Source of the DNA: Acidilobaceae archaeon
GTDB lineage: Archaea > Thermoproteota > Thermoprotei_A > Sulfolobales > Acidilobaceae
DNA length: 64,000 nt
Assembly: GCA_027037535.1 (NCBI GenBank)
Contig: JALVZQ010000005.1
Coordinates: 1 to 64,000, forward strand
Direction of reading: 5' to 3'
Shown: positions 1,069 to 58,570 of the stretch, piece after piece
How positions within the stretch are numbered: the first letter of the stretch is position 1
Layout: every line of letters starts with the position of its first letter
Program-made: the position numbers and the translations under genes
The notes under the pieces: model-generated
Database searches by the model: none
What the model was told of the DNA's origin: nothing
What the model saw: the letters and a program-made list of their open reading frames with translations, nothing else

Positions 1069-2361
1069 GTGGCGTTGGTGGAATCTAGGGATAGTACCTC
1101 TAGCACTAGTCTTATGTGTGCTATGCTAGTATTATTACTATTGTTTGCTATTGTATTTATCCCTATAAGTGGAAGATTCCATCTCTACGTTATAGGGGCT
1201 AGATACGATAACAAACAAATAGAAGTAAGCTATTGCGCAACGAAGAATCCGCTCAACCTTTCTAAGATTATGAAAAAGCTTATGGATGAGAAACCTAGAA
1301 CAATATATGAAACAATATTTGAGAAACCGTTGAACGAGACGTTTCCCAAAATATTTGATTATATTATAAGTGAGGCAAGTAACGAGTCTGGCTCTTGCCC
1401 TAATAGGATCCCTAATAGGAAGACTCTTTATAGCCAGTTACCTGAGGATCTTTGGATTGCCAGTATAAGCTATGGAGACCCAAATGGAATATACTTTGGT
1501 TTGTCCCCACAATCACCTAGTAACAGGACAATTAGCTCGAGTGAGAAACCGGGATTGCTTATAACCTCTACAGATATCACACCACTACTCTCTTTAGATA
1601 TTTTTGTGTTTATAATATTGCTACTTTCCAATGAAACTAGTCCTGGTCGCTTCGAGAAGGAACCCAATCATTATACCTATAAACGCCTGCTAGCGCTTTC
1701 ATATACATCAATACTTTTATTATTGAAATTTATACTATTATTATTGTCATATTTTCAAATTACTACATCATTGCTCATTATAACATTAGCTCTAATAGTG
1801 CCAGTTGCAATGCTAATTTTATATTCTGTCTCCATTGTTATAGGCCGGTACGGTTGCAATCTTCATCAGAGACTTAAGGCGAAAAGTGGGAAAACGCGTT
1901 GGTTCGTGAAGCTGGTTGAGATATTATTCCCGCCAAACTTCTGCATCAATATAGTAGGCGACGACTATAAACCACAACCAGATAGATATACTAAATTAAT
2001 CGATAGAAGTACTAAACTAGTCGCAGGAGGAATATTGATAATTTTCACCATTTCAATAATGTATTACGCATTACCCTCAATTCTCGACAATATCTTCACG
2101 AATCAAGCAGGAACAGCTTCATCCCAAGGTCTTAGCGGGATTGTTGCTCTTACAATAGCAGTAATTTATACTGTGCCCTTTACACTGCTGAACATGACTA
2201 GTTCTGAAGCAATAAGAGCAGCTTACGATGCTCTACTCTTGATTGCACTAATGATCTCCATGTTAGAGATTATTACATTTTTAGCTATATTCAAATTAAT
2301 TTTCATGATAACCGCTCCATTTGTTGCAATCAGCTTTCTGTTATGCTACCAAAGAGTATAA
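1069..2361 (+). CDS. Polytopic membrane protein of unknown function with an extracytoplasmic domain, 430 aa
   Basis: I do not recognise a family. The GTG start is supported by an AGGAGGAG motif and a TATA box just upstream. A first hydrophobic segment lies at about residues 15-35. It is followed by a soluble region of roughly 130 residues containing NxS/NxT sequons, probably outside the cell. The C-terminal two thirds hold several strongly hydrophobic segments (about 165-190, 210-260, 315-340, 360-380, 390-428) rich in Leu and Ile, with a basic loop (HQRLKAKSGKTRW) that is probably cytoplasmic. There is no ATPase, transporter signature or catalytic motif I can name. It may be cotranscribed with the small membrane protein just upstream. 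Confidence 0.7.
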   Translation: MALVESRDSTSSTSLMCAMLVLLLLFAIVFIPISGRFHLYVIGARYDNKQIEVSYCATKNPLNLSKIMKKLMDEKPRTIYETIFEKPLNETFPKIFDYIISEASNESGSCPNRIPNRKTLYSQLPEDLWIASISYGDPNGIYFGLSPQSPSNRTISSSEKPGLLITSTDITPLLSLDIFVFIILLLSNETSPGRFEKEPNHYTYKRLLALSYTSILLLLKFILLLLSYFQITTSLLIITLALIVPVAMLILYSVSIVIGRYGCNLHQRLKAKSGKTRWFVKLVEILFPPNFCINIVGDDYKPQPDRYTKLIDRSTKLVAGGILIIFTISIMYYALPSILDNIFTNQAGTASSQGLSGIVALTIAVIYTVPFTLLNMTSSEAIRAAYDALLLIALMISMLEIITFLAIFKLIFMITAPFVAISFLLCYQRV

Positions 2362-2761
2362 CTATTAGGATATCTACGGCAGTTCTATAATGTAACTTTT
2401 GATAGGAGCCATGCAGGCCTGCTTTACTATCTCCTATCATTGTATAAGAGACAAATAGTCGAGACTCATATGATTGTTAAATGAATAATATGGGGAAGAG
2501 TACTGTTAGTCTTGTCATGATTGTTCTCAATTTCTTCCTCTGAGGCAGGAGCGTCATTTTAACGATATTGTCTTGGTTTGCTGGAGGCGTATTGGGATAA
2601 AGTGTTTTTAGATACATGTTGAACTGTTTCTAATGGGATTACAAGTTCATTGGTAATAGAATGTTCATTGGATTATGGGCTTGTAGGTCCTGGGTTTATG
2701 GTTTTTTAGGGAGCTGGATATTGTTGAGTATTTTTAGGGGTGGGCGTGATTGATATTGGTT
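2362..2761. other. Convergent intergenic region, nothing recognised
   Basis: This gap separates two converging genes. It is AT-rich with several T runs that could terminate either transcript. No ORF with a domain, no RNA structure and no repeat was seen. Confidence 0.4.
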
Positions 2762-3898
2762 TTATTTGTTTTGATTATTTGTTTTATTTAATATATTTAT
2801 TAATTGTAGAAGACTTCCTCCGCTTTCTATGGTGCGGATGAGGTTTTTATATATTAGTCTTTCAATGTATTTTTCGGATTTTTCTATTCTCTTCTTGTAG
2901 TATTGTCTTAGGAATTCTAGTAGTAGTTTTTCTTCGCAGTCCGTGTCATCGCATTCTATTTTCATGTATATATCGTCTTTTACTGGAATTAAGTCGGCTA
3001 TTATTATTGATTCGTTCTTTTTTAGTAATAGAATAATCCTCTTCGTGTCTCGGCAAGAACAGTCAATTCTCTTTAAATTATTATAGCCTATGGAATAAAT
3101 AGAATCGATTATTTCTTCTTCTGATAAGGTTTCTAGGAATGGATCGAGTGATTTTATCGAGACATATTCTTTTTCTATATCTTCTGGGTTTATACCTAGT
3201 TTCTCTACTATATTTTTCTTTGATTTTATAATAATTTTTTCTAGGTTTGCTTTTAATTTCTCTATGTTAAGTACTATGTCTTCTCCGTTCACTGTGAACT
3301 TAGAGGTATCAGGAACCACTATCGACAGGCCAACACCATCCCTACATTCGCAACTACTCGAAGTTCCAGCCATATAGTATTCATCGTCGGCATCACTCTC
3401 CAGTGAATCTAATAAAGCCTTCGCCATTTCTTCTTCATCGATTACTATGTTATCTTTAAACCAGCAATAGGATATCTCCAGATTCAAATCTTCTCCGTCG
3501 AGAGGCGAGAGAGCTACTACGGCAACCAGCTCATTATATAGAGGGAGCTGGCATGTAATGCCGGCGAGTTTATCGAGGAAAATATCTAAAATATCTCCTT
3601 CCAACATTATAGCGATAGATGCCTCTTCACCTTCTATGGTAAAAAACACATTATATCTTCTTGTAACATCCTTAATCCGTTCAATTATATCAAGCTCGTT
3701 TCCTCGGATTTCGTCAAGATACCCACTAACACTAGAATAATAGTTCTTCTCGCCTTCATCATTATATTTACATTCTAGTGTCATTACTACTGGATCTAGA
3801 CCGATCTTATATAGTTCTTGTAGCATATCTAGAATATCTGAATTAAAGTGTTCACGTAGGAACTCTGAAAAATTAATTTTCTCGGCCAATAATATCAC
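2762..3898 (-). CDS. Acidic soluble protein of unknown function, 378 aa
   Basis: No family is recognised. The predicted product is hydrophilic, without a signal peptide or membrane segment, rich in Glu/Asp, Lys and Ile. Three cysteine-containing spots stand out: SSSCECRDG near the middle, CSCRDTKR and CDDTDCEEK toward the C-terminus. They could bind metal or form disulfides, but spacing does not match a known zinc motif. Residues after about 230 look alternately helical and strand-like, ending in a long helix. The gene is monocistronic by spacing, transcribed toward the 1069 gene. The protein could belong to an uncharacterised, lineage-restricted crenarchaeal family. Confidence 0.65.
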   Translation of the reverse strand: MILLAEKINFSEFLREHFNSDILDMLQELYKIGLDPVVMTLECKYNDEGEKNYYSSVSGYLDEIRGNELDIIERIKDVTRRYNVFFTIEGEEASIAIMLEGDILDIFLDKLAGITCQLPLYNELVAVVALSPLDGEDLNLEISYCWFKDNIVIDEEEMAKALLDSLESDADDEYYMAGTSSSCECRDGVGLSIVVPDTSKFTVNGEDIVLNIEKLKANLEKIIIKSKKNIVEKLGINPEDIEKEYVSIKSLDPFLETLSEEEIIDSIYSIGYNNLKRIDCSCRDTKRIILLLKKNESIIIADLIPVKDDIYMKIECDDTDCEEKLLLEFLRQYYKKRIEKSEKYIERLIYKNLIRTIESGGSLLQLINILNKTNNQNK

Positions 3899-5748: not shown

Positions 5749-7707
5749 GTGGAAAAGACTGGTCTCTGCATGTATTGTGGCCTAGGATGCCGACTGACAT
5801 ATGTTTTTGAACGTGGACAATTAAGGAAAACAAGACCTCTAAAACAAGACCCAGTCAGCCTTGGCGCTCCATGTATTAAGGGACTAACACTCCACGAAGT
5901 AGTCGGAAAAGGAAGAATAAAGAGGCCTCTTATACGTAAGAGTCCTTGGAGGCCTCCAAGAGAAGCGTCGTGGACAGAGGCATTAGACCTGGTGGCCGAG
6001 TGGCTTAAGGACGCCGATCCATATGAGGTTGCGATAGTCGCTAGCGGCAAAACATCGAATGAGGACGTGTATTCCCTGGTTAAACTCGCTAGGGGAGTAC
6101 TAGGGACGCCGAACATCGATAACTGTTGCGGGAGACTATGCCATGCCCCCACAATACTGGTTCTCAAACATATATACGGAATACCTGCCAGTCCAGGCTA
6201 CCTCGACGACATAAATAAACTGGATCTTCTTATACTGGCAGGAACAAATCCTGCCAGTAATTATCCGGTCATGTTTAATAGGATAATGTGGGCGAGAAAG
6301 CGCCATGGCCTGAAGATTATTACGATAGATCCTGTGAAGAGCGAAACGGCGAGATATAGCGACTATCCTCTTGCCGTGAGGCCAGGCAGCGAGCTAGTAG
6401 TGTTCAATTATTTTGCAAAGGTAATTATAGAGAACAGAGCATATCCGGACCACATAGAACAGATCCCGGGGTTTAGAGAGTACACGGAGGCAATCAGGCA
6501 CTTCGACCTAGAAGTAGCTTCTCAAATAAGCGGAGTAGACAGGTCACTCTTGGCTAAGGCTGCTGAAGCAATAATTTCAGCCAAATCAGTAGGAGTCGCT
6601 AATGGGATGGGACTGACCCAGCACTCCAACAGCGTGGAATCCCTCTATGCCTTCTATAACCTAGCACTCCTACTTGATGCAAAGGTAGTAACCGGAAGAG
6701 GCGAAATAAACGTTCAGGGCGCAGGCGATATGGGAGCATTACCAGACTCCCTCCCCACAGGAGCCATGGAGACATACATGGATCTCTCCAAACTCTGGGA
6801 TCTACCGGTAGAACCTATAAAGGGTCTAACAATAACCGAAGCATTCTTCCACGAGCCAATGAGCATATACATGCTATCGGCGATGAATCCCGCACATAGC
6901 ATGCCGGCCATCGACATAGTAGCTAAAAGACTCGAGAACGCATTCACAATCCAAATGGAGTCATACTATAACGAGACGAGCGAGTATTCGACTGTTATCC
7001 TCCCAACACCCCTACTTATAGAAAGAGACGGAACAATAACTACTGGCGAGAGAAGAGTTAGAAGCATAGGCAGGCCCCTGGAACCGGCTGCGAGCCTGAG
7101 AAGAGAATGGATTATAGCAAAGAAGATAGCTGAGAGACTAGGCTATGGAGACAAGTTCTCCTATGAAACGACTTGGAGCATAACACGTGAGTATACAACA
7201 GTAGTCCCTGCTTACCGCGATGTAAGCCCCATAGCTCTCGAGAAGGGAGAGGATCAGTGGGCGGATAAGACCATAAAACGAAGAAGGTTCCGGCCCCCTG
7301 TATTCCGAGGACTGGACGCGGAAAGAACACGAGGATACCCATGGATACTCACAAGCTTTCGAAGCAGCCATCATTTCCTAAGCAACGAGGCCACCTCAAA
7401 AAGCCAGACCCTCTCCAAGTTCCCCGAAAAACCATTCCTATACATGAATCCCAATGACATAAAGTGCCTAGGGCTGAGAGAAGGAGACAAGATTAGGCTG
7501 TGCACGAGACACGCATGCAAAGAGCTCCCAGTAGCTGCATCAACCAAAGTACCAAGAGGAATGCTAGGCGTCTATTGGCACTTCAAAGAAGTAGAATACA
7601 ACAAGCTAGTGCCAATACAGTTCGAGACCCGTACTATGACTCCCCAATACAAGAACGTCCCTGCAAGACTCGAGATTAATGGAAAAGTATTGTATCCCTG
7701 CAGATAG
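5749..7707 (+). CDS. fdhA: Formate dehydrogenase-like molybdopterin oxidoreductase, catalytic subunit (cysteine type), about 652 aa
   Basis: I choose the GTG at 5749 because the ORF-track start overlaps the CBS gene and the protein family begins close to the first cluster. Residues 7-42 hold a [4Fe-4S] motif (CMYCGLGC and later PCIKG). NIDNCCGRLCHAPT corresponds to the formate dehydrogenase active site; the second Cys of CC (about residue 127) occupies the position of selenocysteine in E. coli FdhF. Bis-MGD binding segments (GTNPASNYPVM, GMGLTQHSNSVESLY, VILPTPLLIERDGTI) and the C-terminal molydopterin dinucleotide-binding domain (LTSFRSSHHFLSNEAT) follow. It is expected to oxidise formate with Mo or W. 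No electron-transfer partner, hydrogenase or membrane anchor is adjacent, so the acceptor is unknown. Confidence 0.85.
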   Translation: MEKTGLCMYCGLGCRLTYVFERGQLRKTRPLKQDPVSLGAPCIKGLTLHEVVGKGRIKRPLIRKSPWRPPREASWTEALDLVAEWLKDADPYEVAIVASGKTSNEDVYSLVKLARGVLGTPNIDNCCGRLCHAPTILVLKHIYGIPASPGYLDDINKLDLLILAGTNPASNYPVMFNRIMWARKRHGLKIITIDPVKSETARYSDYPLAVRPGSELVVFNYFAKVIIENRAYPDHIEQIPGFREYTEAIRHFDLEVASQISGVDRSLLAKAAEAIISAKSVGVANGMGLTQHSNSVESLYAFYNLALLLDAKVVTGRGEINVQGAGDMGALPDSLPTGAMETYMDLSKLWDLPVEPIKGLTITEAFFHEPMSIYMLSAMNPAHSMPAIDIVAKRLENAFTIQMESYYNETSEYSTVILPTPLLIERDGTITTGERRVRSIGRPLEPAASLRREWIIAKKIAERLGYGDKFSYETTWSITREYTTVVPAYRDVSPIALEKGEDQWADKTIKRRRFRPPVFRGLDAERTRGYPWILTSFRSSHHFLSNEATSKSQTLSKFPEKPFLYMNPNDIKCLGLREGDKIRLCTRHACKELPVAASTKVPRGMLGVYWHFKEVEYNKLVPIQFETRTMTPQYKNVPARLEINGKVLYPCR

Positions 7708-8263
7708 AATCATGCCGAGCTCCCCCGCCTAACCAGTAAATGCTAACGGTATAGACAGTATAGCGTGATACCAGGTTCTACAGATATATTTATCCGGGAG
7801 GAAAAGCCATTAACACTTCTTGAAAATATTAATTGTTTTCAGGCTTTGTCTTCCTAACGATTCCCTTACTATAATTTTGGTTTTCTATGGAGTGTTAGCT
7901 AGATCCATATGTGAAACTGGCTGGCTTTCTCGGATGGAATCGTCAACTGTGTACTTACTTCCCGTCACGTCTCCGATGACTAAAACTGTGTATTTTATTA
8001 TTTTTGCTAATAATAATTCTTCACTTATTTTAATGCATGATTCTGTTTGTGGCGATTTCATCCTTCATTTTCCCGAAGATAATTTATTTTACACTAAATA
8101 GGGATCAAGGCAATATAGGATGAAAGCTCTAGCCCTAAACGTATATCCCTTTCCTTTACTGGACTGGGTCCCCTTATCATGGATCTACTTTTATATCCTG
8201 TGCTCAGCTTAGGAGGAGTGTAGTACTCGCTGGTCTTGGCCTTGTAATCCATATAGCGGAGTA
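7708..8263. other. Long gap after fdhA, no gene supported
   Basis: A 93-residue TTG-start ORF (7820-8101) lacks a ribosome binding site and a recognisable fold. A TATA-like CTTTTATATCC near 8190 and a GGAGGAG motif near 8212 precede several short open segments in different frames (LLLYPVLSLGG, then VVLAGLGLVIHIAE), which might be remains of a membrane protein gene continuing into the next ORF. Confidence 0.3.
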
Positions 8264-8473
8264 GTGTCTGTTATTTTCCTGGTAGTAAGGAAATTATCTG
8301 TAGGAAAGCTAGCGTCTTACTTGTTGCTCTTCTTTTTGAACGTGTTTTTCTCGATGAAAATCCTCTCTCCTATGGATAGCTTGGACTACTTTGTTCTATT
8401 GGTTGTTATTTATCTTTGGATTTTCCTTAATGTGTTTACCACTAGTCCTTTTTTCCTCGAGAACCACTTCTGA
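8264..8473 (+). CDS. Possible small two-segment membrane protein or gene remnant, 69 aa
   Basis: GTG start preceded by GCGGAG. The product has two hydrophobic stretches (about residues 18-30 and 40-60: LLLFFLNVFF and YFVLLVVIYLWIFLNVF). Open segments with hydrophobic coding potential just upstream in other frames suggest that it may be the end of a decayed longer gene. No family recognised and low confidence. Confidence 0.25.
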   Translation: MSVIFLVVRKLSVGKLASYLLLFFLNVFFSMKILSPMDSLDYFVLLVVIYLWIFLNVFTTSPFFLENHF

Positions 8474-8686
8474 GAATGTATAATTAGTTTTACTCGTCTG
8501 ATTTTCACACATGATATAATGGAGAATGTTAGTCTAAGATGTAGCTGTCGCTGATCCCTTCCCGGGAGGTCTTTGTGTATATCTTGTATAGTGAGTTGAA
8601 TAATCTGAGTCGATGGTGTTATCGTGTTTTCTTTTTATATATATTACGATTTTTATCATCATAATGAATATTAAGTAAAATAATAT

Positions 8687-11600
8687 TCATTCTTGATTTC
8701 TATCATATATTTTGTTCTTCGCCAAGTATATGGTCATTATTCCTATGAGGATTATTATTAGTATAATCCATGGTAGCCAAGTAGTTGTTTTTGTGCCTGG
8801 CTGTTGTGGCATGGTTGTTTGGCTACTGGAGAGAGGAGGCTGGATGGGAGGCTGAGTTGTTTGACTGCTTGATGTTTCTCCGTTGCCCGTGGTTTCCTGG
8901 CTTGTGGGAGGTGGAGTCTCGGTTTGAGTAGGCGGGTTTGATGTGTTCGTTTGGTTGTTTCCTGGAGTTGGCTCTGGCTGTGATGTAGTTATGGGTTGTT
9001 GCAGCTCTATGGTTCGAGGTATAGTGATTATTTTGTATTGTTTTGCGTAGTATACGTCTCCGTTTGGTTCTAGGCTTAATAGTAGAAGGGTATGGTTCCC
9101 GGGTTCTTCTAGCGTATAGCAGAAGACATACTGGGTTCCCGGTTCGTGGTATTTGTCTACTTGCGGTGTTAGTAGGATAGGGTCATCGTCGAGAAGTGCT
9201 ATTGTATAGTTAGTATATGGCGTGTACTCAATGCATTCTTGTTCTCCTAAGACGGCTAGGAATGTTAGTGTTGAGTCGATATCTCCTGGAGTAGGTGTAA
9301 GGGTGAGGTTTAGGATTTGTACGCTGTAGGAGTCCCTGTGGGATTGCGGCGTGGTTAGGGCCACGTAGTACTCGTAGCCTGGGGGAGGAGTGATGGTTGT
9401 ATTACACTCAATGCTCTCTAGAGCCTGACTCGGGCCGAACCATGCTTTAACGTTGCCTTGCGGGCATAAGACTTGATAGCTTCCATTGTCAAGTGTCTTT
9501 ATCATGTAGGGACCAGATACTTGAGCTGTATGGAGAGAGGCCTTGAGGCTAAGTGAGGGGAAGAGTCGTGCAGCTATTAGAACGTCTCCGGCCCAGACTC
9601 CAGCTATAACACCGCTCCGTCCTCCTAGATTATCGACTGAGCCATAATATATTCTGGCCCCATCCTCGCTTACTATTGCTGGCACACTATAGCTCCTAGT
9701 ATACGAGGGATCGAATAAATACGGGACTACGAGACCGCCATCGGGAGTTTGAGAGACCGCCAGTACAACTGTGGCGACGATGGGTGGGAGAGTGTCTGGT
9801 AGATCTCTGACTAGCACGGGGCCAGGCACTCGATAGACCTTGTTCGACGCCGGTATTGCTAGCGTGTTATTATCTATCCAGCCTGCGGCCAGCCCATTAT
9901 AATCTATGAAGTCCAGTGTCTCCAGGCCACGATCTGTTACGAGAGCATAGAGAGTACCATTCCCTATGAGCATCCCGTTAAGGAGGAAGCGTGCCCATAG
10001 CGTCACAAGAGCATATTCCCCGGTTGGACTGAGGCGGAGATCATACATGCTGACCCATGTTTGAAGATCTTCCGGATGCCTTATGGGGAGAATCTCCATT
10101 AGATTTTCTGCTAAGAGAGAGGAGAGATTCTCCTCCCCCGACCAGGCCGAGGCTGAATCCTTCCAGTAAAGAGCCAGATTTCCGCCAATTTTTGCCAATG
10201 CGAGAACTGTATGATTAACGCCCACCACCCTCTGAAGATATGCCTCGGGTGGAATAGTCAGGTTTATTGATAAAGATGTATTATCCCCGGGATAATACAG
10301 TGTAGCTCTATAATAGTTGTCTACCCACGTGACTACCACGGCTCCCGGACCCCACGCCGGTCCCAAGCCTTTGAGGGTTCCCTCCTGAGGCGGTGGAAGC
10401 GTGATATTCTCTGTGCCGTCTCTTGTAATCAGCATGTATTGTATTTGTCCTCCCTCATAGCTAACTACAATTACCCCATTGTTGTTTACCCATTCCACTG
10501 GTTTAACTAGTTCCGAGCCCACACCCACTATTCTTGACCCCTTGGAGGGGTCTAGGGAGATTATGAGGAGATCCTGGTATACATTGGGCCGGGCAGCCAG
10601 TACTGCCCAGTCTTGTAACGAGTATAGAGCCACATAATCCCACGTTGTTCCCCCTGTGCTTAGCCCTGACAGAAGAGCTTTCTCTCCGTTGAACAGTATC
10701 TCGGCTTCCACGCCTCTTATGATCGATACAGATCCATTTACCCAACCGTATCCTGCCGAATAAATATTATTGATACTCATATTCCGGCTCCACTCGACCG
10801 TGTACTCTGTGCCGCAGAGAGACGCTTCTTCAACAGTAGATGATGCAGTGCTAGGTTGTAGGGCGAGATGGGCGCAGGCAATGCCGTTTCCTAGGGCTAC
10901 CTGTGTATACTGGCTCAATGGTAAGTCCAGGTAGTCTTCCCCGGCTCCAGGTGTTATAACAGTTATCCTCCATACTGTTTCTCCCGAGTATGCCTGTGTT
11001 AGGATATAGTAGTGTTTGTTGTCCTCGGCGATAGAGTAGAGATACCCGTCTGGCTCTAACTGTGTCAGTGCTCCATTATAGTAGTAGAGTATATTTCCTC
11101 CCACATTCATGAGGAGTGTCCCTAGAACGCTTTTGACCCCCATAGTGGACCCTGTAAGCCATGGTGCTTGAACCGGGCTTTCCACCTGGCTTATTGTAAC
11201 GGTCCCATTGGGCCATATAATGTAGAGGGAGTCCGCTGTGAGTGCCGCTGTGACACCGCTCTGAGGATCGCTTCCCCAATAAGCTATTTGGCCGCTAGTA
11301 TTGTATTCAACCATCGACCCTGTAGTCAGGTCTAGCACTTCGAATAGCGATATATTCCCTATTCTCCTCCCATACGGATCATATATTATCTCTTCATCTA
11401 CCAAAACAGCAGTACTGGGTCCCGATAGGAATACCCTAGTCGGCTTTATACCCAGCGTGTCGTCGTCAAAGATGACGGCACGCTCCACATTACACGAAGA
11501 AGAATTCAAGACCGTTACCATGAAGCCATCTGGTACAGAGGGCGTTTGGCTAAATGGGTTCCACAAGCTCATTACAACTCCTATCTCTTCACGATAAAAA

Positions 11601-35239: not shown

Positions 35240-35713
35240 TCATTTGTTAAACAAATATGATATGAGAGAACTAGTCTTCACTATTATGTCTGCTTTCTCG
35301 AATCCCATGCAACTATATATTTTCTTATCCTTTACTTCAAGAGTTATTGAACTGTTGTATTCTCTAAGTCCTATTATCGAGAGTTTATCGCTATATGTGA
35401 TATGTCCCGTGTAGACCATGTAGTCTCCTTCATAATAGAAGACTCCTTCTATTTCTTCGGAGTTATATGGGTGTCCTGCTCCGAAGCTTTTTGTCTTGGC
35501 CATGTATTCTATTAGTCTGCCGTTTTCGACTTTGTAGTATTCTATTATGGGTGTGTTCTCTACACTATGGGTCCAATTATATATTATTTTCGAGTAGTCT
35601 GGTGCTATCGTCTCGTAGGTTGAGTTATCACATGTGATGGAAACAGTTTGGATTGGAAGTAGGAGTAATGATAGAAGGTATATTGCGGTGATTATGAGAA
35701 AAAACTTGTTCAA
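35240..35713 (-). CDS. DUF1850 family exported protein associated with TAXI/TRAP transport, 157 aa
   Basis: N-terminal signal peptide (about residues 3-24, FFLIITAIYLLSLLLLPIQTV). The conserved core WTHSVENTPIIEYYKVENGRL and TKSFGAGHPYN matches DUF1850, a family found next to TAXI-type TRAP transporters in bacteria and archaea. Function is unknown; probably assists receptor or permease outside the membrane. The gene follows the TAXI receptor gene by about 50 bp on the same strand. The TRAP permease gene expected in such clusters is absent here. Confidence 0.75.
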   Translation of the reverse strand: MNKFFLIITAIYLLSLLLLPIQTVSITCDNSTYETIAPDYSKIIYNWTHSVENTPIIEYYKVENGRLIEYMAKTKSFGAGHPYNSEEIEGVFYYEGDYMVYTGHITYSDKLSIIGLREYNSSITLEVKDKKIYSCMGFEKADIIVKTSSLISYLFNK

Positions 35714-37483: not shown

Positions 37484-37963
37484 TCACTTAACATCCAGGA
37501 CAATACTATATGATTCTCCATCTGTGAAAGCAACAGTAATCATCACGGGCTTTGATATGTTTTCTATGTCAAGATAACCGGACAAGCACTTGAGATTAAT
37601 CGTTATGGCGAAGGATTTCTGACTTATGTTCTTTAGGTTAACGTACTTTGTTACATCGATAATTTTCGCTCCTGATATAAGATAAATTTTTTCGACATCG
37701 AACAGGAACATGTATTCTTGGCCTGAGATATCCTGTATTGATATATATACTGTGTTCTCTGGAGAATAACCTTTCACTACGAGGAATAATACCTTGCGAT
37801 CCTTGTCTAGGACTGCTTCTTGCAGCTCTGGCTTTGAAGAGACTTTTTCTATCTTTTGACCATGTGTTTCTTGGGGGTATGTATAGCTAACTCCGCTGTA
37901 TAATGTTGCTATTGTTAGTAGCGTTAGCAGTGTTAATGTTATTGTTGTTTTTTCCATTTTCAT
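37484..37963 (-). CDS. Small exported protein of unknown function, 159 aa
   Basis: Signal peptide at residues 1-25 (MEKTTITLTLLTLLTIATLYSG). The mature protein has a beta-rich pattern (KVLFLVVKGYSPENTVYISIQDI, YLDIENISKPVMITVAF) like an immunoglobulin-type or PGF-type domain; one Cys. No family recognised. Its promoter overlaps a 12-bp-armed palindrome formed by two opposed TATA elements (37972-37998), so expression may be tightly regulated. Confidence 0.6.
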   Translation of the reverse strand: MKMEKTTITLTLLTLLTIATLYSGVSYTYPQETHGQKIEKVSSKPELQEAVLDKDRKVLFLVVKGYSPENTVYISIQDISGQEYMFLFDVEKIYLISGAKIIDVTKYVNLKNISQKSFAITINLKCLSGYLDIENISKPVMITVAFTDGESYSIVLDVK

Positions 37964-43763: not shown

Positions 43764-45863
43764 ATCAAGGCGAGAAAACATACAGTAGTAATAACCATCG
43801 CTCTAGTAATATTCGTATCCGTGTCCTCACTACCTACTGAGACAGCATATTATCAAATCTTCACCTCTCAAAGTGGAGCACTTCTGTCAAATACTAGGGA
43901 CGGGAACACATACTATCCCGTATTTAATCACATGGCAATAATGGGAGAAAACATAGTCTTAATAGGATTTGAGCCTCAAAATAGAGCAACAAATTTCGGA
44001 ACTATAGCCAGATTTAACTACACAACTGGTTCTATCGATAAATATGTTACGTTCAAATATAACAATTTTGACTTCGGAAGCGATAGTCTTCGTTCTATAG
44101 GATTTGGATTCCTTAGATTTGCGGCAGTTCCTTACGTACCTCCAATGAAAATCGAGCCCAATGGAATCATACCTCTGGATAATGGCGGATTCCTTCTATC
44201 CACTACAATATATGATACCTTTATACCGCCTGGCGGTGTTGCCCTAGTAAACCTAAACAACTTGACTATCCAAGAAACTGTATTTTTTAATAACACGTTC
44301 TCTACAGTGACAGGAATACATCGAGCTCCAGATGGAAATATACTTATTACTGGGGCAGCGAAAGGTACGGCCATGATCTCATTACTTAATCCAAATAACA
44401 TGACAGTATTCTCGTCAATACTAATAGATATTGAAGTTAATCCGTCTCCGAACACTGGTTCTAGTTATAAAACCCTTTCTATGGTCGACGACGCATATTA
44501 TGACATAACAGGACAACTATATATAGCCGGACGCTACTTTACATACAATACAAGCACTGCAAAAGTAGTCGACAAAGGTATATTTATACTAGAGCTCGAT
44601 CCCTCAAATACTAATGAAGTTATAACATCCTCTAGCATATTAAGTATTCCTCTGACGGATTCTTATCCAGATACATGCACTTCTATTATCGATATAGAAC
44701 CGGGTCCTGAACCCGGACAAGTAGCATTTGCAGTAGAGGCAAACACTACAACCATAGCATATTCAATTCCAGTTCCCCCATACTATATCTATGAGAACCT
44801 GTCGTCCACTCTTCTAGGAATTCTGAATATTCAAGACAACACACTCCTCGCCGCAAAATCTATAAATCCCGATGATAACGTGAGTTATATTCCAATACAG
44901 TTCGAAAGGATGGCGGATGGCTCATACTTGCTACTAACATGGGGACTGGATTATTATTATTGGTACCCCTATACAGTATTCAACGTCATTGATCCTAGCT
45001 TTAACTCTATCAAGACGTCATTGCTATTGCACAATGTATTCATAAGCCAAGTTATTATAAATAATACGGCCAATATAGCACTGTCTACAATGGGCCTTTT
45101 CCCTGGTCCGAGTGCATGGCCCTTCCTCGTAGGATATAATTATGAAAATCTAACAGGACAATTGATAATGGGCGACTATCCAAAAATAGATGAGATCATA
45201 CCTAGACAAGCAAATATTTCGGTTACCGTGAATCCGGATCTAGATATAGTCAAGTTAGCGACCAATATGACTTATGTAATAGATAATCTTCCAAACGCCT
45301 CTATTTCATTAGTAGATCTAAGAGCAGATTTCCAGATCTATAATAATGATCCAAACGGTGTTACTCTATCATCTCAAATTGATAACTTCACAGTCGAGAA
45401 AATATGTAAATTAGCTACTGATACTCCTATGCCTGTTATTGGACCTAGCAGTACTCTATACGGATACCTAGTATGCCCTTATAACACATTCATATTCACA
45501 AACGTTACTATAAGCAATGTTACGGTTGGCGACTATGAAGTAATATTCGATGTATCAAACAAGACTCTAATTACACTACTTCCACCACCTGATTTAACAA
45601 TAAAAAGCATAAAATTTAACAATATTACTTTGTGTGACGGAGATTGTAATAAATTCTACAACAAGACCTCGGGACTTTATGAATTTGACCCGAATGGCAC
45701 TATTATCATAACGTTCAGTACTGGGCCCGCCATTAGCGGAGTTCTTATAAATAGCCATAATTACAATGATAGATCCCTGATAAATAGTATATCACCGATG
45801 TTCCTACTACTTGGAGTTACATTAATCGCAACTTTAATAATATTAACTCGACTAAAAAGATAA
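43764..45863 (+). CDS. Large exported, C-terminally membrane-anchored surface protein; start codon unusual, about 699 aa
   Basis: The ORF track begins at a GTG (43821), but the same frame upstream encodes KIKARKHTVVITIALVIFVSVSS, an obvious basic plus hydrophobic signal peptide. That frame has no ATG, GTG or TTG back to a stop at 43734. GGGGGGATC at 43752-43760 resembles a Shine-Dalgarno sequence and would suit initiation near the ATC at 43764. The mature protein is beta-rich with many NxT/NxS sites and repeated phrases of the type ITGAAKGTAMISLLNP and LYIAGRYF that suggest propeller blades (about residues 30-430), followed by Ig-like segments. A final membrane segment (MFLLLGVTLIATLIILTRLKR) anchors it. 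Function unknown. Confidence 0.65.
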   Translation: MKARKHTVVITIALVIFVSVSSLPTETAYYQIFTSQSGALLSNTRDGNTYYPVFNHMAIMGENIVLIGFEPQNRATNFGTIARFNYTTGSIDKYVTFKYNNFDFGSDSLRSIGFGFLRFAAVPYVPPMKIEPNGIIPLDNGGFLLSTTIYDTFIPPGGVALVNLNNLTIQETVFFNNTFSTVTGIHRAPDGNILITGAAKGTAMISLLNPNNMTVFSSILIDIEVNPSPNTGSSYKTLSMVDDAYYDITGQLYIAGRYFTYNTSTAKVVDKGIFILELDPSNTNEVITSSSILSIPLTDSYPDTCTSIIDIEPGPEPGQVAFAVEANTTTIAYSIPVPPYYIYENLSSTLLGILNIQDNTLLAAKSINPDDNVSYIPIQFERMADGSYLLLTWGLDYYYWYPYTVFNVIDPSFNSIKTSLLLHNVFISQVIINNTANIALSTMGLFPGPSAWPFLVGYNYENLTGQLIMGDYPKIDEIIPRQANISVTVNPDLDIVKLATNMTYVIDNLPNASISLVDLRADFQIYNNDPNGVTLSSQIDNFTVEKICKLATDTPMPVIGPSSTLYGYLVCPYNTFIFTNVTISNVTVGDYEVIFDVSNKTLITLLPPPDLTIKSIKFNNITLCDGDCNKFYNKTSGLYEFDPNGTIIITFSTGPAISGVLINSHNYNDRSLINSISPMFLLLGVTLIATLIILTRLKR

Positions 45864-52610: not shown

Positions 52611-52916
52611 TTGCAGCCGATTATGAGGATCGTGCTTGGGGAACGACTTGCTAGGGATCAGAACTGGGCTTCGATCATAAAAGTACTGTATAGTTTTGGC
52701 GTATTGGATCGAGTTGGAATGTCTAGAGAGGATGAATGCGCGTTGGAGGTGTATCTCGGAGTAATACCTTATTATGGTGAAAACGCCCTTATTATCATAG
52801 AGCAATGGCTCGACTATGTTAGAACCCTGGGTGCACGTAATGTCCCCCCTCCACGGCTCTGCAATAGACGGCAAGAAACTAGTAGTATTAACAGGTCCAT
52901 CAGGAGTAGAACTTGA
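52611..52916 (+). CDS. Small protein of unknown function overlapping the next gene, 101 aa
   Basis: The first ~70 residues (from the internal ATG at 52623, MRIVLGERLARDQNWASIIKVL) look like a genuine helical protein with SREDECALEVYLGVIPYYGENAL. The last 25 codons overlap the next gene in another frame and are of low complexity (basic, Arg/Ser). Either both overlap, or a frameshift separates one longer gene. No family recognised. Confidence 0.4.
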   Translation: MQPIMRIVLGERLARDQNWASIIKVLYSFGVLDRVGMSREDECALEVYLGVIPYYGENALIIIEQWLDYVRTLGARNVPPPRLCNRRQETSSINRSIRSRT

Positions 52917-54072
52917 ACACCTAGCCGAATACATGGCCTCATCCTCCAAATCAAAGGTCCGAGTCCTCAAATATGAAAACTACTTGGAGGAAGTAAGCGG
53001 TGGAATAGGAGGAATAATCGGGGTTTTAGTTAATGCGCTCCAACCGAGACACGATCAATTTTCGAAGTTCTTTGAGGCCGCTGAGCACCTCGTTGAAGAC
53101 GCGAAAAACACTAATGCCGACGTCATAGCTCTCGTCGCCCATAGCTACTACTATAGAAGCCATCACCTCATACCTAATCCAGGCCTAGAAAGAATACTTC
53201 GCCTATGGCGTCCTCGAGCCCTCGTAGTCGCTATAGACGACTATTACCATGGCCTGGACAGGATAGCCCGGAGAGTAGAGGAGAAGAAAACTCCGCCTCT
53301 CAGCGACATACTTGACCCCAATGATTATCTAACATGGAGAGCACTAACAATCTTTCACTCCCTAGTCCTAGGCAGACTATTCAACTCTCAAGTTATCGTA
53401 CTAGCCCTGAAACATAGGAGGCTAAACGTCCGGAGACTATCAAGGCTCCTATTTGATGACGCCCCCATGAAGACCTTCTACCTAAGCCACCACATCACGA
53501 TCCCGAGAAAGGAGGCATCCGCAGAGGGAATTCCTCTAAGAGAGCATTGGCTTGTCAGAGAAATAGAGGACTTGAAGACAGAGCTACTACAGTCATGCAA
53601 GAACCTTATACTATACGAGCCTACGGCCATAGACGAGTTAATTCCGGGAGATGACTTTCCAATATCGAGAATCGTGGATCAAGATAACAGGTGGCCGCAC
53701 TATGATACCCCGGACTACGCATCGTTCAATTACCCGCTCGATATAGAGGAGGATATCCTCGGCAAGCTCACAAGCCTCAAACTAAATAAAGAATACGCCG
53801 AGTATCTAGCTAATAGGATAAAGGCACAGATTCCTCCAAGAGATCTGAAGATGATAGAGCAGAGCCAAGGCGTCATAGCCTATAAACCAGTATATGAGGG
53901 CAAGACAAGTGAAGGGATGAGTGCTGAGATCCCCTTCGCAGTAGCAAACGACAAGACAGTCATAATATATGGTGCGAAGGAAAAAGGAATCAATGAACTA
54001 GGACTTTTCAAACAGAGTCTCTCAATCGTCTACGAAGACGTTGATCACCTGAAGACAGCGCTAGGATGCTAG
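52840..54072 (+). CDS. Predicted P-loop-like protein of unknown function, about 410 aa
   Basis: The N-terminus KKLVVLTGPSGVELEHLAEYMA resembles the P-loop of nucleoside monophosphate kinases, but the Walker A lysine is missing (GPSGVELE instead of GxxGxGKT/S), so ATP hydrolysis is doubtful. A downstream strand LRLWRPRALVVAIDDYYHGLDRIARRVEE would be Walker B-like, and FYLSHHITIPRKEAS is a distinctive motif. No membrane segment. I prefer the ATG at 52840 (MSPLHGSAIDGKK) over 52816. Preceded by an overlapping 101-residue ORF; ends four bases into the convergent archaeosine gene. Confidence 0.6.
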   Translation: MSPLHGSAIDGKKLVVLTGPSGVELEHLAEYMASSSKSKVRVLKYENYLEEVSGGIGGIIGVLVNALQPRHDQFSKFFEAAEHLVEDAKNTNADVIALVAHSYYYRSHHLIPNPGLERILRLWRPRALVVAIDDYYHGLDRIARRVEEKKTPPLSDILDPNDYLTWRALTIFHSLVLGRLFNSQVIVLALKHRRLNVRRLSRLLFDDAPMKTFYLSHHITIPRKEASAEGIPLREHWLVREIEDLKTELLQSCKNLILYEPTAIDELIPGDDFPISRIVDQDNRWPHYDTPDYASFNYPLDIEEDILGKLTSLKLNKEYAEYLANRIKAQIPPRDLKMIEQSQGVIAYKPVYEGKTSEGMSAEIPFAVANDKTVIIYGAKEKGINELGLFKQSLSIVYEDVDHLKTALGC

Positions 54073-54776: not shown

Positions 54777-55498
54777 TGCTCTCCTCCCCAGTCAACGAGG
54801 TCAGCATATTTCTCTAGTAGTCTTGCGAGCTTTCTGCTCACCGGTACCGGTTCTGGGTGTCCTGGATTATACTTCTTATACCTTACCGCTATTACCCCAT
54901 CGAACAACTCGCGGAACTTGTAGAGGCTTTCTTCTACCTTGTCTTCTGGTATTAGCTCAATACCGAATAATAGATACGTCCAGATCTCGACATCGTATCC
55001 TTTTGATCTTAGTGTTTCTCTGAGCCTGGAGACCCTATAGAGCTCTGAGTTAGGCATTCCTTTCCTCAGCTTCTCTTCTCTTATCTCTTCATCGTAGACC
55101 TCGAACCCTACACGTATAATTAGCTTCTCAGGACCATAGTAGTCGTACAGTGCTGTCACAGAATCGTACGTCACGTACTCGCTTCTCTCCTCTATCTCGA
55201 ATATCTTGTTCTTTGCCAGAGGCTTAAGTTGCTCTATCACCAAGTATGGGAGTTCATGGAAGCTTCCACCATTGAATACTGCAATCCTCCTGTATCCTTC
55301 CCTCATAGCGATAGCGATAGCCTTTTCTATTATCTTCTTATTGTCTCCTAGTATTCGGCTGGTATGTAACGTCTGCTCCAGTGCGAATGGGCAGAACGTG
55401 CATTTACCATAGGCACAGGGCAGTCCTCTTAGTATCAGCACTAGTCTCCTCCCTAGCCTGTCATGTTCTCTAAATACTCCTATCATTATTGCCCCCAT
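54737..55498 (-). CDS. Radical SAM protein, RaSEA-like archaeosine biosynthesis partner of ArcS, 253 aa
   Basis: An Elp3/HemN-type radical SAM protein with a cluster motif GLPCAYGKCTFCPF (CX4CX2C, about residues 27-38), strand IAVFNGGSFHELP and SAM-binding segment FEIEERSEYVTYDSV. RaSEA converts the ArcS product q0kN to archaeosine. The gene overlaps the ArcS-type gene by 40 bases in an operon, the arrangement reported in Thermococcus. The heptamer LPCAYGK is shared by both proteins, possibly by chance. Assignment depends on neighbourhood and motif. Confidence 0.7.
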   Translation of the reverse strand: MGAIMIGVFREHDRLGRRLVLILRGLPCAYGKCTFCPFALEQTLHTSRILGDNKKIIEKAIAIAMREGYRRIAVFNGGSFHELPYLVIEQLKPLAKNKIFEIEERSEYVTYDSVTALYDYYGPEKLIIRVGFEVYDEEIREEKLRKGMPNSELYRVSRLRETLRSKGYDVEIWTYLLFGIELIPEDKVEESLYKFRELFDGVIAVRYKKYNPGHPEPVPVSRKLARLLEKYADLVDWGGEQWIIAGKEGSAPG

Positions 55499-55553
55499 AC
55501 TTCTCGAAAAGCAATAAGGGATAATTATTAGATCGTATTATTTTAATTCTAGT

Positions 55554-56150
55554 TTATGAAACACGTTCACCACACCTACTAATTATACCTGTTCTCCAAT
55601 TCACACATTTAATTACCCTATCTAGTTCGAATTCCTCCTTTACTTTTCGACGATTGCTCTCTATTTCATTCTTTATCATTGCCTCGAGTTGTGGAAGAAG
55701 ACCAAGGTATCCTGTCAGATTCTTAAATAAAGTTAAACATCCAATCTTCACGTTAGCATGTATTCCGAGCGTATCTAGTATTTTTAGAATTATACTAATG
55801 CAGACCAAGTGTTTCCTAGCTAGGTTCCTTGCATATCTTGTAAGTATGTTTTTATAATTTGAGTTTACATCGTTATTGATAGGAATTTTTCCTTTTAACT
55901 CGATACTATAAATTGTTACTATTTCATCGCTAAGAAACCCTACTATACAATCGCATCTGGAATACTTTTTGAGATTAATCGAGAGACCGCTAATTGATCC
56001 TCCAAATTTATTTAGTAAATCCTCAACGTTAAGAAATAGAATGGCGTCTTCCGGAAGGAATATATAACATCCTGATTCTTCACATGCAGGATAACAATAT
56101 CCATTATTTTTGTCGCACTTACAAGTTAAAGAAGGGCTAGTGTATTTCAT
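55554..56150 (-). CDS. Putative PD-(D/E)xK-type nuclease with N-terminal cysteine cluster, 198 aa; effector partner of the adjacent ATPase
   Basis: Not a family I know. Five cysteines in the first 30 residues (CKCDKNNGYCYPACEESGC) look like a zinc-binding knuckle. Residues 66-86 (RCDCIVGFLSDEIVTIYSIELKGK) hold Asp67 and Glu84-Leu-Lys86, the D-x(n)-ExK pattern of PD-(D/E)xK nucleases with the usual beta-beta-beta context. A helical C-terminal half with basic NRRKVKEEFE and CVNWRTGIISRCGE follows. It starts 6 bp after the ATPase gene on the same strand, so the two are cotranscribed. The nuclease call is inference from one motif. Confidence 0.6.
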   Translation of the reverse strand: MKYTSPSLTCKCDKNNGYCYPACEESGCYIFLPEDAILFLNVEDLLNKFGGSISGLSINLKKYSRCDCIVGFLSDEIVTIYSIELKGKIPINNDVNSNYKNILTRYARNLARKHLVCISIILKILDTLGIHANVKIGCLTLFKNLTGYLGLLPQLEAMIKNEIESNRRKVKEEFELDRVIKCVNWRTGIISRCGERVS

Positions 56151-56156
56151 GCCGCA

Positions 56157-57719
56157 CTACCCGTAGTTTTCTAAGTCCTCAGTATCACTACTTGCCCAGT
56201 TCGCTATCCTCAGCCATGCCTCGCTTAGGTGCTCCATCCAGTTCAGGGGATCTTCTGCTACTTTGATTCCTCCATTTTCAACAATATATATAGCAGGCTT
56301 TTCTTTTTCTACTCCTTCAGCTATAAGCTCTAACACGTCTCTGCCTGGAGGCTTGTAGCCTAGCTCTTTATACAGGTTCCTTGCAAATAATATGGCCTCC
56401 TCTCGGTTTTTAGCACTCATTATTTTTGATACTACTGTAACCACAATCGGGCTATGTGTAGTAGCTATCACTTTGATCCCTAGTCCCGATAATGCTAATA
56501 ATATTAATGCAATAATCGCCTGTCCTGACGGATGCAATAAATGCTCGACCTCGTCTATTAGCAGATACCCTGATTTTCGTCTTATTAGTGGAGCTGAAGC
56601 AAGTATTAGTCCTGTTACTGATACGGCGCTGCCGTGTGCCAACCGGAATGGTATAGCCTTTCCTCCTATGTCTAGGTATAGTCTATCTTTGCCTTTAGTA
56701 AGCTTGTATATAAGCAGGGGCTCGGCTAGCTTGAATAACGCTCCTAGTTCTTTAGGCGCTTCGGGAGTGCCCAGTATTCTTAGTCCCTCATATATAGACT
56801 GTATTAAGTTAATAGCAGGTAGGAATGCGCTTAGTCCCATTCCACTTATGCTTAAGCCGCGTGCTAGATCTCCTATTACTGGTTCTGTAACTGTATAAGT
56901 GATTAGCCCTCTTCCCATCCAAATGTAAACAGGCCTGTACATACTATAGTATTCATAGATCATTCTCCCTTCATTAGATATCTTCATAACAATATCGTAG
57001 ATCTCCTTTATCTGGTTACTTTTTATGATTCCCTCCTTATGTTTAGATAACAATAACAAGGCAAGTATCCACGAGAAATACCCTGTTAACGCATCGTTTT
57101 CTTCTGTTTCAAAAATATCCACTATTTTCATTATACCATTATAATCGCTAGGAGCCAGCCCACTTACGTCTACCAACACATTTTCCTTTCCAAAACAAAA
57201 TCTCTCTCCTTTATCTTCTTTAATTCCAGCATTAATGAGTATGGTTCTTATACTCTCACTTATTACATCAGATAGCTTTCTCTTAACTTTAGGTAAGTTG
57301 AGGCTGAATTCCGAATCTGATGGGATTATCCAGCCTAATAGGCATCTATCTATCTTTTCCTTTCCCCGATTTATATCTATACATATTGAGAATTCTCCTA
57401 TATAGAGCATATTATTCTCTAGCCTGAGGTCTCTTAATATAACTTCGATAATGCGTTCCTTGACTAGAGCCTCTGCAACTTGTAAAGTCGAACTACTATA
57501 AGAAGTACTTCTAAACAGACATGCAGTAACCGAATTAGGATCGGCAGGCAGGAGATCGCTAAATAAAGCATTCAGTGTAAGGGTTTTTCCTTGTGCAGGA
57601 GGACCTGTGAGAAGTGTGAGGTTACTTATTTCTAAATTTGTATCTTTTAACGGTCCTAGTCTTTGAATCAATAGCTTCGGTTTATTCCATGTTATTGTCT
57701 CGTACTTACCATTAGTCAA
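56157..57719 (-). CDS. AAA/SMC-like ATPase (AAA_15/21 group), 520 aa, coupled to the nuclease-like gene
   Basis: The N-terminal pattern LLIQRLGPLKDTNLEISNLTLLTGPPAQGKTLTLNALF contains Walker A (GPPAQGKT, about residues 39-46). A long insert (about 80-340) holds many Ile/Lys/Leu helices; its end is near residue 380. Walker B is YLLIDEVEHLLHP (about 386-398), and ATTHSPIVVTVVSK provides the switch His. The Walker B sequence DEVEH differs from the usual DEPE. The C-terminus has GYKPPGRDVLELIAEGVEKEKPAIYIV, where the last strand resembles the end of OLD-family ATPase domains. TTG start. First gene of a two-gene operon with the nuclease-like protein. Confidence 0.85.
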   Translation of the reverse strand: MTNGKYETITWNKPKLLIQRLGPLKDTNLEISNLTLLTGPPAQGKTLTLNALFSDLLPADPNSVTACLFRSTSYSSSTLQVAEALVKERIIEVILRDLRLENNMLYIGEFSICIDINRGKEKIDRCLLGWIIPSDSEFSLNLPKVKRKLSDVISESIRTILINAGIKEDKGERFCFGKENVLVDVSGLAPSDYNGIMKIVDIFETEENDALTGYFSWILALLLLSKHKEGIIKSNQIKEIYDIVMKISNEGRMIYEYYSMYRPVYIWMGRGLITYTVTEPVIGDLARGLSISGMGLSAFLPAINLIQSIYEGLRILGTPEAPKELGALFKLAEPLLIYKLTKGKDRLYLDIGGKAIPFRLAHGSAVSVTGLILASAPLIRRKSGYLLIDEVEHLLHPSGQAIIALILLALSGLGIKVIATTHSPIVVTVVSKIMSAKNREEAILFARNLYKELGYKPPGRDVLELIAEGVEKEKPAIYIVENGGIKVAEDPLNWMEHLSEAWLRIANWASSDTEDLENYG

Positions 57720-57841
57720 ACTCCTACACCGGGTTAAATCTATAATATTTTATTTCCCTTATCACTGTAATTTCTATAAGTTGACAGCAGGGTTTTAAAT
57801 TATAGAGATTACTATCTAAATGATTGGTAGTACTCTAAACA

Positions 57842-58570
57842 TTATTTTAAATAACCTGTATTCTCATTTATTTCTATGTTTTCATATATTGGCTCTATTC
57901 CCGCAAAGTTCCTGATCAAGTAGACTCCTAGGTATACGAGTGGCGTGTCGAGTAGTGCTATCATGATCTTGATCGAGTATTGTCCTATTATAATGGAGGT
58001 GATCATCTCCAACGGGAGTCCTCCTGCTCCGAAAAGGCTGGGGAGGACGCTGAACGCTAATGTTATGAATATCACTGTGTCTATTAGCTGGCTGACCATT
58101 GTGCTGGCATTGTTTCTCAGCCAGAGCCATTTGCCCCTTGTTTTTGTCTTCCACAGGTGGAAGGCCCAGATGTCGTGGTGCTGGCTTATTAGGTATGCTA
58201 TTAGGCTGGCTATTATAATATAGTATCCGCTGAATATCACGCTCTGGTATGCTTCCTCGCTGACCGGAGATATTGGCGCTATAGGGAGCTTGACAGCCAC
58301 AAGGATATAGGCTAGTACTAGTAGTTGCGTCGCGAATCCTAGCTTTACAGCGAGCCCCGCTGCTTTTCTTCCGTAGACCTCGCTTATTATATCTGTAAAC
58401 GTGAATGTTAGAGCGTAAGCTGCTACGGCGGCTGGAGCTATTAGCATGGTGTCGCCGATTGTTATCTTGAAGAGTTTTGCTGCCAGGAAGTTGGATGCTG
58501 TTAGGCTCGCAACGAATAGTGAGACTAGGGCTATTAGTCCTGCTGTTCTTTTATCGATGTCGCTTTCCAT
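57842..58570 (-). CDS. Queuosine precursor transporter (YhhQ/QPTR, VUT family), 242 aa
   Basis: About six to seven hydrophobic segments with family motifs ASNFLAAKLFKI, FTFTDIISEVYGRKAAG and VSQLIDTVIFITLAFS. YhhQ proteins import 7-deazapurines (preQ0, preQ1, queuine). Lying near ArcS and RaSEA genes supports import of preQ0 for archaeosine. GAGGTGAG eight bases before the ATG confirms the start. Separated from the archaeosine pair by the ATPase/nuclease-like module on the same strand. Confidence 0.85.
   Translation of the reverse strand: MESDIDKRTAGLIALVSLFVASLTASNFLAAKLFKITIGDTMLIAPAAVAAYALTFTFTDIISEVYGRKAAGLAVKLGFATQLLVLAYILVAVKLPIAPISPVSEEAYQSVIFSGYYIIIASLIAYLISQHHDIWAFHLWKTKTRGKWLWLRNNASTMVSQLIDTVIFITLAFSVLPSLFGAGGLPLEMITSIIIGQYSIKIMIALLDTPLVYLGVYLIRNFAGIEPIYENIEINENTGYLK

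Follow-up and report, generated by a model that had tools for sequence, protein, structure and literature searches.

A predicted archaeal module of an OLD-type ABC ATPase and a small cysteine-rich PD-(D/E)xK nuclease

The two-gene plan in which an OLD-type ABC ATPase is encoded with a small PD-(D/E)xK nuclease is already known in bacteria, from the PD-(D/E)xK system PD-T4-4 of E. coli (PMC10952713) and from WonAB of the Vibrio cholerae WASA-1 prophage. In WonAB the ATPase gene comes first and the gene for the small PD-(D/E)xK protein second, and residues K34, R182, E300 and H333 of WonA are each required for defence (PMC12137116). WonB is toxic when overproduced, and the ATPase is needed for that toxicity and does not neutralise it. 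Genomic DNA stays intact while translation stops, and rRNA or tRNA has been proposed as the target. Operons of an OLD-ABC ATPase and a novel REase were first listed in an ABC-ATPase survey (ref. 33 of PMC12137116). Septu PtuAB and the PtuA-PtuB pair of retron Ec78 likewise consist of an OLD-like ABC ATPase and a small nuclease, and the Septu pair cuts tRNA-Tyr. Gabija GajA, OLD and PARIS AriA contain a related ABC ATPase whose TOPRIM nuclease is either fused or separate. In Thermoproteota the prevalence of known defence systems is reported to be lower, with the exception of restriction-modification, CRISPR-Cas and argonautes (PMC12988326).

An operon that is probably of the PD-T4-4 and WonAB type, with the same gene order as both, is found in an Acidilobaceae archaeon, in the 64,000-nucleotide stretch of DNA that was analysed here (the window; Table 1). 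Its first gene encodes 520 residues from a TTG start, which makes the N-terminus ~13 residues longer than in homologues, and the second, starting with ATG, encodes a protein of 198 residues. Both reading frames and the 6 bp gap between them are as expected from the original prediction of a two-gene operon. That prediction did not recognise the combination, which does share its plan with PD-T4-4, WonAB and the OLD-ABC ATPase and novel REase operons (PMC12137116).

Table 1. Positions in the window of the operon, the insert that carries it and its main sequence features.
Feature	Position	Strand	Basis
Lineage-specific insert carrying the operon, 2389 bp	55486..57874		both flanks 88% identical to L063 (blastn); low GC
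Small Cys-rich protein of the pair (198 aa), a predicted PD-(D/E)xK nuclease	55554..56150	-	alignments A3 and A10; AlphaFold2 model
C23-x4-C28 pair, predicted hairpin, probable metal ligands	56067..56084	-	both present in all nine close homologues; C28 in ≥90% of A10
E43, start of first helix, motif h-[ND]-h-E	56022..56024	-	mostly E, few D in A10; invariant E in A11
C66-D67-C68, candidate catalytic Asp between two Cys	55947..55955	-	D67 invariant, C66 at least 90% in A10
E84-L85-K86 (ExK)	55893..55901	-	E invariant in A10-A12; K in 18/32 partner genes
C182, last strand, conserved Cys	55605..55607	-	kept by most members in each subgroup (A10-A12)
OLD-type ABC ATPase (predicted)	56157..57719	-	AAA_15 5.8e-8, AAA_21 1.9e-7 (Pfam); PD-T4-4_A 1.4e-14 (PADLOC); 6p74 1.3e-13 (family profile)
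Walker A GPPAQGKT, residues 39-46, K45	57582..57605	-	K45 invariant, 11 homologues
R270 of G-R motif	56910..56912	-	invariant in 11-sequence alignment
Walker B LLIDEVEH, residues 386-393, E390	56541..56564	-	E390 invariant in 11-sequence alignment
H-loop (switch) His 422	56454..56456	-	invariant in 11-sequence alignment

The larger protein carries the Walker A, Walker B and switch His motifs originally read in it, and the key residue of each, together with R270, is invariant among homologues. It had been called an AAA-type ATPase; its profile matches instead place it among the OLD-clade ABC ATPases. AAA_15 and AAA_21 are ABC-type families despite their names, and PD-T4-4_A, its top match in the PADLOC defence library, is matched mainly over the part from Walker B to the H-loop. 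Each of the 11 ATPases of the family has PADLOC matches to both PD-T4-4_A and PDC-M47A, and the best PDB match of the family profile is a solved OLD-family nuclease, 6p74. Pfam finds no TOPRIM domain in the window ATPase, and as only ~100 residues follow the H-loop there is no room for one, which separates the pair from Gabija, OLD and PARIS. The K, R, E and H required in WonA are all present, a correspondence drawn from spacing and not from alignment: R182, E300 and H333 of WonA lie 118 and 33 residues apart, against 120 and 32 for R270, E390 and H422. R270 is therefore the probable counterpart of R182, given its spacing to Walker B. Compared with WonA, the window ATPase has a longer inserted stretch separating its Walker A and G-R motifs, and it comes from thermophilic archaea.

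When Thermoproteota genomes were searched, first with the small protein and then with a small profile, eight further clear members were found, and an OLD-type ATPase lies directly upstream in all nine proteins of this subgroup. Two weak small-protein matches with no ATPase beside them (L013, L014) were rejected as chance. A scan of GTDB contigs with one peptide pattern gave four loci, all already found in the genome search. Starting from the ATPase, 36 Thermoproteota loci were examined among the search matches, some weak ATPase matches being left out, and in 32 of them the next gene downstream on the same strand is a small D-Xn-E gene. The predicted adjacency is thus upheld across these archaeal genomes. 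The partner genes encode about 120-240 residues and are spaced from a 43 bp overlap (more in one case) to a ~60 bp gap; in the most divergent, L108 and L116, the D-Xn-E pair was read by eye. The four loci without an intact partner comprise a remnant at L106 and no partner at L109 or at L055 and L100, both of which have broken ATPases.

The partner genes were aligned as three subgroups (A10, A11 and A12, the window protein belonging to A10), which profile comparison joins into one family: hhalign gives 96.5% and 8.5e-10 for A10-A11 and 90.7% and 1.3e-6 for A10-A12, with A11-A12 weak. In searches the window protein itself matched no Pfam, NCBIfam or PADLOC model (in PADLOC not even at E 1), gave chance-level matches only against PHROGs and Pfam, and had no match of note among PDB sequences. 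The tie to described nucleases comes through an intermediate member, L113, which matches PD-T4-4_B at 3.5e-4 over the D...ExK stretch and PDC-M47B at 0.0055 in PADLOC; its match to L010, a member of the window's group, has 1e-6. By these sequence matches L113 links the family to PD-T4-4_B, which in PADLOC matches neither the window protein nor any of 13 relatives in A10. Unlike PD-T4-4_B, the window protein is archaeal and has a conserved set of Cys residues, and it is likened to WonB on gene plan and PD-(D/E)xK type. PtuB differs as an HNH nuclease, where the window partner has D-Xn-ExK. Genome G219 has the pair twice, in differing copies that are each of the ExS type (L104 4331-4810, L062 4563-5117). 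Larger partners of 214-241 residues accompany more distant ATPases at L060 (2020-2661), L107 (2687-3388) and L116 (2125-2847), carry EFK, ECK or ENE instead of ELK, and possibly represent different PD-(D/E)xK families with the same type of ATPase.

In the small protein the original prediction read a D-x(n)-ExK nuclease motif, and the arrangement D67-x16-E84-x-K86 is indeed there, within CDC (66-68) and SIELK (82-86). A loose form of it, D-x(10,22)-[hydrophobic]E-x-K, also occurs in 18% of shuffles of the protein and in 8 of the 52 window genes of 100 residues or more, so the motif alone is no evidence. The evidence for the D...E pair is conservation across homologues. Both residues are invariant in A10, where mean column identity is 25%, and in A11 and A12, so the D and E of the motif are kept through a divergent family. 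C-x4-C, CDC and E-x-K are the same in all nine subgroup proteins, as is a P-x-L close to their start. E43 is a candidate fourth active-site residue from its conservation.

The small protein might alternatively be a structural or regulatory metal-binding subunit that keeps the fold and acidic residues and has lost catalysis, as the ExK lysine is replaced in 14 of the 32 partners (~40%) by S, T, G, D and others, and fold matches are weak. This seems rather unlikely, since all nine members of the window's subgroup retain D, E and K at 21-65% identity to L010. A helix Lys followed by a Cys (L-x-x-K-h-x-x-C) occurs in most members of A10 and A11, and the basic residue of PD-(D/E)xK enzymes can sit elsewhere. 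The AlphaFold2 model, built from five sequences, is of medium confidence (pLDDT 69, pTM 0.71). D67 lies where one strand (68-74) begins, and E84 and K86 where the next (77-86) ends; the elements run b-b-b-a-a-b-b-a-b-a-b. This order appears restriction-endonuclease-like, as in PD-(D/E)xK enzymes. The predicted structure agrees with the nuclease reading in its order of elements and falls short in its pLDDT and in its Foldseek matches, of which the best reach E 0.049 (PDB) and 0.0045 (BFVD), none 0.001, with TM-scores of 0.2-0.3. PD-(D/E)xK proteins are nevertheless frequent near the top of the lists: Shedu nuclease ranks first in PDB, and HincII, McrBC, exonuclease VIII-like and bunyavirus endonucleases also appear. 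Herpesvirus UL24 is a member of this fold. A model of a 174-residue homologue was poor (pLDDT 48) and was left out of the analysis.

The operon sits in a lineage-specific insert between radical-SAM/archaeosine genes and a Vut_1 transporter gene. A genome of the same genus (G003) has syntenic flanks, 88% identical, with 191 bp in place of the 2389 bp, and the transporter also adjoins the radical-SAM gene in G002, G004, G007 and G010. The empty site agrees with the suggestion that an insertion had split the archaeosine genes from their transporter, and no integrase or target-site duplication was seen at the insert. A link of the pair to archaeosine metabolism was rejected because other copies adjoin unrelated genes. 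GC content of the insert is 0.372 against a window mean of 0.442, a comparison drawn from the window alone, which has other AT-rich genes: those at 1069-3898, 35243-35713, 37487-37963 and 43821-45860 have 0.34-0.375 against ~0.44 and are possibly foreign. Also in the window, at 52816-54072, is a 418-residue protein of no clear family: a P-loop-like GPSGVE lies near its start, and a region close to the C-terminus weakly matches nucleoside 2-deoxyribosyltransferase in Pfam (0.0016).

Distribution of the pair is patchy. It is present in 6 of 229 genomes of the class, and a search of the four other genomes from the same genus did not find it. The ATPase family profile matches 34 of 398 sampled Thermoproteota genomes (~9%), the weaker matches including broader OLD relatives. 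Homologues of the small protein were not found in IMG/VR, nor those of the ATPase in IMG/VR, plasmids or phages. Between G251 and G258, of one genus, dN/dS (Nei-Gojobori) is ~0.26 for the small gene and 0.39 for part of the ATPase; in a second pair, with dS saturated or near-saturated, both are 0.15. On the ratios from these two pairs, the small gene is under purifying selection. Several copies are broken: L007 has an internal stop, L048 has lost Walker A, L055 and L103 have split ATPases, L100 and L102 degenerate ones, and L004 a possible frameshift. The window operon's own neighbours are housekeeping genes, and those of other loci include PIN, HEPN-nucleotidyltransferase, RAMP and methylase genes, although modules of the PIN and HEPN kinds occur commonly in genomes like these. 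In the same-order genome of L056, one or more type III CRISPR-like RAMP-superfamily genes lie ~1.2 kb downstream of the pair (6706-8872). Patchy presence, insertion and decay are circumstantial evidence for an antiviral or anti-plasmid role.

Overall, the operon is likely an archaeal version of the OLD-type ABC ATPase and small PD-(D/E)xK nuclease module, in which nucleic-acid cutting would be gated by the ATPase. By analogy with WonAB and Septu, the nuclease would be expected to act under the control of the ATPase and to arrest growth when infection occurs. The ATPase would dimerise in an ATP-dependent manner and hold the small protein through its C-terminal region. On sensing infection or another intruder, it would release or activate the small protein, which would cut nucleic acid using E43, D67, E84 and K86. 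In line with the proposal for WonB, the most likely target would be RNA of the cell, for instance tRNA or rRNA, with DNA as a further possibility; cleavage would stop growth or virus multiplication. The module would probably serve abortive defence. A toxin-antitoxin-like or addiction module, with the small protein as toxin and the ATPase as its control, would also have a small effector in a two-gene operon, sporadic presence and several broken copies, and other loci do have toxin-antitoxin neighbours. The toxicity of overproduced WonB fits as well. This reading is nonetheless doubtful, as the ATPase gene is first and larger, and the WonAB ATPase is required for toxicity; the designation 'AbiEii toxin, Type IV TA' given to AAA_21 is no more than the name of a family.

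With 11 Cys residues the small protein is unusual: the other window genes, the only background used, average 2.2 per 198 residues. The original prediction placed a five-Cys cluster in a zinc-like N-terminus. Homologue alignments show the conserved Cys to be C23, C28, C66, C68 and C182 instead, so that the Cys site is no separate N-terminal domain and includes both residues flanking the putative catalytic Asp. The most widely kept are C28, C66 and C182; C23 and C68 are added in the window's group, and C68 is replaced by A, F or Y in some more distant members. On the simplest reading, C23/C28, C66/C68 and C182 are probably ligands of a structural zinc, which would brace the strand of the active site. 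Since the protein is PD-(D/E)xK-like, comes from a thermophile and has at least four conserved Cys, these might instead hold a 4Fe-4S cluster, as in the Cas4/AddB nucleases. Such a cluster is unlikely here: Cas4 and AddB have one Cys before the core and three after, whereas this protein has one pair before it, one bracketing the Asp and a single Cys near the C-terminus, and no Pfam match to Cas4. A more speculative and quite improbable proposal is that these Cys form a metal or redox gate, in which the active site is switched as Zn or Fe-S binds or is lost and the module senses a metal or redox change in infection; in a related proposal, the branches with E-x-S/T in place of the lysine would be a distinct catalytic variant and not dead enzymes. 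A housekeeping DNA-repair pair of a RecF/Rad50-like ATPase and a nuclease is highly improbable given the scarcity of the pair in the class and genus, its insertion into a syntenic site and its decayed copies, even though OLD and Rad50-like ATPases share a common ABC core and several repair nucleases are PD-(D/E)xK enzymes.

In the model libraries searched (Pfam, NCBIfam and PADLOC) there is no entry for this archaeal family of partners, for its setting of Cys about the putative catalytic Asp or for its loss of the ExK lysine. Some of these archaeal genes may already be among the OLD-ABC and REase operons of the ABC-ATPase survey. At nearly every locus examined the small partner lies outside Pfam, and PADLOC ties one member only to a known nuclease. 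If the proposed ATPase-gated nuclease module is correct, it would extend immunity of the WonAB and PD-T4-4 type to archaea and give defence finders a new protein family. It would also supply heat-stable proteins for structures of how an OLD-ABC ATPase controls a separate nuclease.
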